A DNA stretch of 59,644 nucleotides from Myxococcales bacterium (GTDB taxonomy: Bacteria > Myxococcota_A > Polyangia > Polyangiales > Polyangiaceae): assembly GCA_903642325.1 (NCBI GenBank), contig CAHJWM010000034.1:1-59644 (forward strand). Reading direction: 5' to 3'. The notes beneath the pieces were generated by a model. The model was not told the DNA's origin, ran no database searches, and saw nothing but the letters and a program-made list of their open reading frames with translations. Positions 5,818-59,644 of this stretch are shown in pieces. Both the position numbers and the translations under genes were made by a program. Position 1 is the stretch's first letter, and each line of letters opens with the position of its first letter.

Positions 5818-6182
5818 GCGCGTGACGCCCGCAGTAGAGCTCATCGACGCCGAAGGCTTCGACGTGCGACGACGCCCACCTTGACCATCAAAACCTCTCG
5901 ACTGAGTGGTTCGAATTGGGGGGATGGTCACGAGGAGTGTCGGAGAGCACTCAGCCTTCGGCGGCCCGGTAGGCCTGAGAACGCGCTCGCGGCATTTGGA
6001 ACAGCTCCTTCCGCGGGATGAGGCGAACGAATCGTCAGCGCATCCGAAGCGTCGCGCATTCGGCGCAGCGGCGCGCACGGAATTCGTGGAGCCGTGCAGG
6101 CGTTCGGCCCGCGCTGCGTAGAGCACCGAGACCTCGGCGGGCCGCGACCAGGGGTTTTACGCGTTCACCAATTCGAAAGCGG
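5818..6182. other. Convergent intergenic gap with a repeat element
   Basis: This 365-bp gap lies between two genes that end towards each other. Its left part holds an inverted pair of the dispersed element described separately (5845-5964). In 5965-6182 I see no convincing coding region: the open frames there lack known motifs and start signals. No tRNA or clear rho-independent terminator is visible. Confidence 0.5.
5845..5964. repeat. Dispersed two-box element, inverted pair (copy A)
   Basis: The left arm reads CGCCGAAGGCT (box 1, ending 5858), 24 nt, then GACCAT (5883-5888). The right arm is the reverse complement: ATGGTC (5924-5929), 23 nt, then AGCCTTCGGCG (5953-5963). The arms are separated by about 33 bp, within which AACC and GGTT can also pair. 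The same two boxes with a 24-nt spacer occur at 22211-22251 and 33757-33865. It lies in a convergent gap. I infer a REP/BIME-like element. No named family was recognised. Confidence 0.6.
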
Positions 6183-21909: not shown

Positions 21910-22297
21910 AAGGATGAACGCGCCTGCCGCTTCGGCGGGCTCGTAGGCGATTTCTTGCGCGATTTCGGAACCGTGGCGATCCGCGGCCGCTCTCCGCCGA
22001 GCGCCGTTCATCCTCGTCGCGCAGCACGTTGATCGTGCCCGTGCGCAGTAAATGGTCTGTCGAACCGCGGATTGCTCTGCGCATGGCGTCTGCTCCGACG
22101 GCGCGAACGAACGGTCCGCCGCCCTCCTCGAGAACATGGTCGGCGAGCAGCTCGACAGGCGTTTCCCGCGCGCGGCTGGGCTCGCTCTTCCGCTTCGAGC
22201 GCCAAACCGACGCCGAAGGCTGCGACGCCGACGGCTTTGGACCGCGACCATTAAAATACTCGGGCTCGACTGGGCTCGGCACGTCGCGCGCTAACAA
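21910..22297 (-). pseudogene. Possible frameshifted gene remnant
   Basis: Reading the minus strand from 22297 gives ELLADHVLEEGG, FVRAVGADAMRRAIRGS and NVLRDEDERR. It then becomes an arginine-rich frame that looks non-coding. A different minus-strand frame from about 22010 continues with DRHGSEIAQEIAYEPAEA and GAFILD. Amino-acid composition in both stretches is protein-like, so a decayed gene with a frameshift near 22000 is plausible. I do not recognise the family. This could also be chance open frame in GC-rich DNA. Confidence 0.2.
22211..22251 (+). repeat. Dispersed two-box element, single arm (copy C)
   Basis: Box 1 CGCCGAAGGCT ends at 22221 and is followed by exactly 24 nt and box 2 GACCAT (22246-22251), then TAAAA. 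This matches the left arm at 5848-5888 and both arms at 33757-33865. No inverted partner is evident downstream, so it appears to be a solo or eroded copy. Confidence 0.5.
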
Positions 22298-33756: not shown

Positions 33757-33865
33757 CGCCGAAGGCTGCGTGCCCTGGCGCCGTATTTTTTGACCATCAA
33801 CCAAAGAAGACGGCCTGAAATTCGATGGTTACGCGCGACGCCGCGGCGCGTCGCAGCCTTCGGCG
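33757..33865. repeat. Dispersed two-box element, inverted pair (copy B)
   Basis: Box 1 with flank, CGCCGAAGGCTGCG (33757-33770), has a perfect 14-bp inverted copy at 33852-33865. In the left arm, 24 nt separate box 1 from GACCAT (33792-33797). In the right arm, ATGGTT (33825-33830) is again 24 nt from AGCCTTCGGCG. The right spacer contains its own palindrome (GCGACGC/GCGTCGC). GC-rich imperfect repeats extend outside both arms. It fills the convergent gap between queD and the HD-domain gene, as copy A does in its own gap. The left arm carries a T6 run, so terminator function is possible. Confidence 0.65.

Positions 33866-58815: not shown

Positions 58816-59644
<829 letters not shown>

Follow-up and report, generated by a model that had tools for sequence, protein, structure and literature searches.

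The window (the whole stretch of DNA analysed here, 59,644 nucleotides in length) comes from the genome of a soil bacterium related to Sorangium and contains five copies of a short two-part repeat, of which the host has about 180. Each copy, here called an arm, consists of box 1 (CGCCGAAGGCT), a spacer and box 2 (GACCAT), and belongs to one of two types, X with CG at positions 15/16 or Y with GC. Four of the five arms make up two facing pairs (5848-5963 and 33757-33865), and the fifth stands alone (22211-22251), as follows:

5848..5888, plus strand: arm A1 (X type); box 1 CGCCGAAGGCT at 5848-5858, 24-nt spacer, box 2 GACCAT at 5883-5888; profile score 51 bits
5889..5923, no strand: 35-bp centre between the facing arms of pair A
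5924..5963, minus strand: arm A2 (Y type), facing A1; box 1 at 5953-5963, 23-nt spacer, box 2 at 5924-5929; 45.5 bits
5845..5965, no strand: composite unit X-centre-Y; other facing pairs of the genome align across the full stretch at ~70-79% identity, and no further
22211..22251, plus strand: single arm B; 24-nt spacer; the surrounding gap, between tandem genes, measures 614 bp; 45 bits
33757..33797, plus strand: arm C1 (Y type, GC at positions 15/16); 24-nt spacer; 49 bits
33825..33865, minus strand: arm C2 (X type), facing C1 across 27 bp; 24-nt spacer; box 2 AACCAT, one mismatch; 39 bits

Exact matches to CGCCGAAGGCT-N(20-28)-GACCAT number four in the window and zero in shuffled sequence. 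The three copies listed in the initial annotation (at 5848, 22211 and 33757) lie where it placed them and are not reproduced by shuffling, and its description of the first as an inverted pair, with a second arm at 5924-5963 on the minus strand and a 23-nt spacer, is accurate; the arms of this pair are separated by 35 bp rather than by the ~33 bp it gave. The copy at 33757 had been listed without a partner and is in fact half of a facing pair, the second arm of which (33825-33865, minus strand) has one mismatch in box 2. Gene positions, taken from a purpose-written codon-usage gene caller, place all five arms between genes, as had been said of the listed copies. Both facing pairs occupy convergent gaps and the single arm a tandem one; one further convergent gap of more than 60 bp in the window is without an arm. 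No sigma-70 promoter was seen at either pair. Elsewhere in the window, a 47-bp stretch at 6094-6140 has an exact repeat in the same genome (G000:C2:127307-127353), and the window ends within a 16S ribosomal RNA gene, the first part of which occupies 58816-59644.

Copy number and intactness of the arms

Across the host genome (G000; 5.83 Mb in 140 contigs) the pattern CGCCGAAGGCT-N(22-25)-GACCAT has 130 exact matches, and the reversed pattern none. With up to two mismatches allowed, a spacing of 23 gives 90 matches (61 exact, 22 with one mismatch and 7 with two) vs 0 in the control, and a spacing of 24 gives 84 (58 exact, 24 with one and 2 with two) vs 3. These genome-wide counts are pattern searches; a two-part profile was scanned across the window and 126 regions fetched around copies, about 717 kb, plus 400 kb elsewhere. 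It identifies 177 arms scoring at least 28 bits vs 0 in the reversed control, with almost nothing between 8 and 28 bits, and finds no match of at least 12 bits in the 400 kb of the host genome away from known copies. Because of this gap in the scores and the lack of matches in the other 400 kb, arms can be described as near-perfect or absent, with no decayed copies in the 400 kb elsewhere.

The initial annotation had argued for a unit rather than chance, and regarded fewer than about five genome-wide hits as pointing to coincidence; the 130 exact matches, against none for the reversed pattern, far surpass that figure. Chance recurrence of GC-rich words is excluded by the counts of 130 vs 0 in the same genome and 177 vs 0 by profile, and as 144 related genomes of comparable composition are also almost devoid of the pattern, its probability is negligible.

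Anatomy of an arm

An arm is about 55-60 bp long. Column counts over 131 arms show a constant G at -2, CGCCGAAGGC at 0-9, a T (mostly) at 10 and a G at 13, followed by the CG of most arms or the GC of the second type at positions 15/16, and weaker base preferences extend to about -10. On the downstream side the arm reads (G)TGACCAT, then CAA, then an A-rich stretch. The 51 changes seen in the boxes are unevenly spread over 17 positions (p about 1e-11). An earlier description, in which the boxes are kept and the spacer letters differ, applies to the family at large, with boxes near invariant and spacers ~45% identical on average between arms vs 30% for shuffled letters; the spacing, which had been given as exactly 24 nt, is variable, at 23 nt in 83 of the 177 arms, 24 in 83, 22 in seven and 25 in four. 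Spacers show no covariation and fold no better than shuffled spacers, and the arm has no dyad symmetry. A peptide reading of box 1 (DAEG...) was rejected, because the frame changes between spacings of 23 and 24 and an in-frame TGA is present in Y arms.

Pairing and the copied unit

The 177 arms comprise 109 single arms and 34 close pairs, and every one of these pairs is inverted (direct pairs, 0). In 25 pairs the arms face one another across centres of 15-54 bp, and in nine they stand tail to tail; 19 of the 25 facing pairs join an X to a Y arm. Facing pairs are homologous from end to end, at ~70-79% over ~120 bp and not beyond; examples aligned to the window pair are C29:30034-30153 (79%) and C32:13684-13800 (76%). 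Since this homology covers the whole ~120 bp and none is found outside it, the facing pairs descend from a copied unit. None of the 109 single arms has a remnant of a partner, and singles show no more decay than arms in pairs, box mismatches being present in 23% of the former vs 35% of the latter (p 0.09).

Single arms (L046-L171) lie more often on the minus than on the plus strand of their contigs (73 vs 36, p 0.0005), even though contig orientation should be arbitrary; within contigs their strands do not agree. Orientation relative to the replication strand, sought through GC skew and within-contig concordance, gave no signal.

Location relative to genes

Only one of 140 exact arms falls inside a gene. 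Gaps between convergent genes hold 57 arms, tandem gaps 60 and divergent gaps 13, and within 300 nt the arms have 202 stop-codon sides vs 64 start sides beside them; arms are enriched at gene 3' ends and in convergent gaps, to which the initial annotation had suggested mapping them. Relative to the upstream gene, 37 arms have the same and 45 the opposite orientation, which amounts to no preference, and only part of the genome's gene gaps carry an arm.

Distribution across genomes

A comparison with related genomes, which the initial annotation had proposed, finds any match at all in seven of 144; these are mostly single and chance-like, and one genome (G002) has a pair with typical arms. In a scan of 84,980 species genomes, typical copies occur only in Sorangium sp. 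MAG bin s1, as this same G002 pair, and the remaining matches are one per genome. A profile search of 108 family genomes likewise gave strong matches only in the host and G002, the rest being weak and short. Viral contigs and phage records contain no match, a plasmid collection yielded nothing relevant (one 41-bp match inside a Streptomyces gene, E 0.03), Rfam has no match, and a search of a literature library found no published account of such repeats in myxobacteria. Because the family is nearly absent from congeners and absent from the other species genomes scanned, it has expanded in one lineage. Congeners are ~70% identical in genes and their intergenic DNA is not alignable, so no empty site or excision is visible in them.

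A possible fold of box 1

Two small folds can be drawn in box 1. One is a GCC-GAA-GGC mini-hairpin, in which all four stem changes among the 177 arms are C>T and preserve G-T pairing (P 0.004-0.026, according to the transition bias that is assumed), and five of six changes in the GNA triloop affect the middle base. In the alternative, CGCC pairs imperfectly with GHCG at 13-16, leaving a mismatch opposite C2; a G at +14, which would close this mismatch, is avoided (6 of 177 arms, p 2e-21), and GC-type arms do not form this stem in the same register. The evidence for the hairpin comprises four stem and six loop changes, and the two folds are mutually exclusive; both are hints that may point to single-strand recognition, and neither is proof. 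Box 1 thus has only the 3-bp stem GCC/GGC or an imperfect stem of four positions, and none of at least 5 bp. Pair A, treated as single-stranded DNA, folds better than its shuffles (z -3.0).

RAYT-like genes

A search for a RAYT-type transposase gene, also proposed at the outset, shows that the host has six diverse Y1/RAYT-like genes, on contigs C29, C33, C86, C98, C107 and C123 (L040-L045); for the two that were tested the best model is REP-associated tyrosine transposase, with a score below the cut-off. Only two of the six have an arm within ~0.5 kb, in both cases upstream, and none is flanked by arms on both sides, several of these genes being near contig ends where a flank may be missing. 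At the observed arm density, random intergenic placement would put arms beside two or more of the six with an estimated p of about 0.09, and adjacency is therefore not established. The searches turned up no IS200/IS605 element bearing these ends, the Y1 proteins present being only RAYT-like. Among congeners, RAYT-like genes number 11 in G003, two in G006 and none in the other five; none was found in G002 (a genome 84% complete), although arms are present there.

Several of the host RAYT-like genes stand beside tandem-repeat arrays, and a perfect 26-bp palindrome, AATCGCCTTCGCCGGCGAAGGCGATT, lies downstream of one of them (L042:2205-2230).

Comparison with known systems

The repeat resembles REP and BIME sequences in being small, extragenic, high in copy number and lineage-specific, in a genome with RAYT-like genes, and it resembles BIMEs in that neighbouring arms alternate in orientation (34 of 34 close pairs inverted); its inverted dimers, like theirs, are often heterodimers. 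REPs have stems of 5-13 bp (PMC3733652) or 7-20 (PMC6006769), belong to GTAG- and CGTC-tagged families (PMC3733652, PMC2817692), and flank the RAYT gene as two inverted copies (PMC2817692). The arms, in contrast, have no GTAG/GTGG or CGTC tag beside a palindrome in the column counts of 131 arms (GACG, the complement of CGTC, requires an A at position -1, where C is frequent too), no 5-13 bp stem, and two blocks separated by a free spacer of 22-25 nt, and none of the RAYT-like genes has inverted arms on its two sides. A REP/BIME-type assignment, as first proposed, therefore describes the distribution well – dispersed, extragenic, close copies inverted – and fails for REP membership itself, the tag and stem being absent.

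REPINs are inverted doublets that act as the unit, with doublets predominating and singlets being decayed remnants (PMC3116915). The extragenic inverted doublets described here are similar, being about 100-120 bp long and conserved at the ends but variable in the centre, but single arms outnumber pairs (109 vs 34) and are not more decayed, and spacers do not covary. The family is thus REP-like in where its copies lie, how many there are and how they pair, yet it belongs to neither REP nor REPIN, and we file it as a small dispersed intergenic repeat rather than as a REP because the tag and the stem are lacking and no RAYT gene was seen to be flanked.

Two further likenesses bear on how the arms may work. 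In the ends of IS200/IS605 elements, which are moved by Y1 HUH transposases, a small subterminal hairpin together with a distant short box would work in a like manner; the sequence after box 2 is often ATCAA, the complement of which, TTGAT, is the target of ISDra2. The ~110-bp units with inverted ends, dispersed between genes, also recall MITEs and Correia-type elements, from which the family differs in its mostly single arms, its tail-to-tail pairs and the lack, near copies, of a transposon with such ends.

Explanations for the family

We tentatively favour a reading in which this is a REP-like, dispersed non-coding element spread by copying, with arms kept as two-part recognition sites of a trans-acting factor. 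The arm would have spread within the lineage both singly and in the form of inverted X-Y doublets about 110-120 bp long, and each arm would be kept as a site for the putative factor. Box 1 would probably be read as a folded single strand, either as the GCC-GAA-GGC mini-hairpin or as the imperfect CG-C-C / G-H-CG stem, and box 2 at a fixed distance from it, the spacer acting only as a constraint on length. The likeliest candidate reader would be an HUH-type (RAYT-like) transposase or a domesticated relative. In favour of such a reader are the six RAYT-like genes here and the 11 in the one other congener with an abundant element; against it are the weak adjacency of these genes to arms (2 of 6 here, and 0 of 11 in G003 for that congener's own element), the missing GTAG guide and long stem, and the arms of G002, in which no RAYT was found. 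Neutral mobile repeats leave decaying copies, and in the sequence scanned here none were found despite widely diverged spacers; from this we infer selection or fast turnover acting on the boxes.

The main rival, which we consider possible if somewhat less probable, is a site for a host protein that binds double-stranded DNA – a nucleoid organiser, a roadblock or a terminator factor at gene ends – which would contact it at the two boxes, some three helical turns from one another (~32 bp from centre to centre). Selection acting on each site would fit the invariant boxes, the free spacer and the lack of decayed copies (in the 400 kb, and at up to two mismatches genome-wide), and the graded tolerance to change by position, the gene-end location with no orientation preference relative to genes and the equal intactness of single and paired arms are all in keeping with it. 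However, the common ancestry of facing pairs over 120 bp means that copies came from duplication of a unit; the family is missing from congeners, unlike a housekeeping site; and arms lack dyad symmetry and occupy only part of the gene gaps.

The stop-codon bias (202 vs 64 start sides within 300 nt) and the folding of pair A (z -3.0, as single-stranded DNA) could instead reflect an RNA element of 3' untranslated regions, acting in termination, processing or stability, with a facing pair as a long RNA hairpin; this is improbable, as arms take either orientation to the upstream gene (37 same, 45 opposite), the two window pairs have no intrinsic terminator, and neither an Rfam match nor spacer covariation was found. 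Still less probable, and disfavoured, is a MITE in which the facing pair is the element and the arms are 40-bp terminal inverted repeats moved by a DDE transposase: it would account for the 25 facing pairs, about 100-135 bp long and homologous throughout, but 109 of the 177 arms stand alone without trace of a partner, nine pairs have the tail-to-tail arrangement, the arms within a pair differ systematically as X and Y types, and distant arms have no transposase gene between them.

On the favoured reading of a copied element with arms kept as recognition sites, the genome would hold ~180 natural replicates of one recognition site, from which contact positions can be read, and would offer a test case in myxobacteria for the maintenance of REP-like repeats and for the protein that reads them. 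A bolder proposal, which we regard as less likely than not, is that these arms, unlike REPs, are two-part recognition elements and represent a new class of chromosomal element particular to the species. A tiny folded block and, at a distance, a linear one would then be under strong selection at ~180 sites with a free spacer between them, with a congener having an element of similar plan and different sequence.

A second element in a congener

That congener, G003, is the only other one found with an abundant element. Traced from de novo word counts in 295 kb of G003, the element reads RGTCTYG-N7-AGATCACGATC (84 copies vs 0 in the control in G003, and 0 in G000), followed by 27-31 variable nt (~48% identical) and often by a small GC hairpin, CCGGCGAGGCCGG. 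It adjoins none of the 11 RAYT-like genes of G003. The element is similar to the host family in its block-spacer-block plan; the sequences differ. By eye, the 12-mer GACGAGCTACGA can be seen in some G003 spacers (L299, L307) and in the spacer of one host X arm (L049), possibly as a trace of common origin, or by chance. Many copies begin 11-18 nt past a stop codon, and short versions of ~60 bp with CTAG-ended inverted repeats also occur (e.g. L294, L312, L313 and L320).
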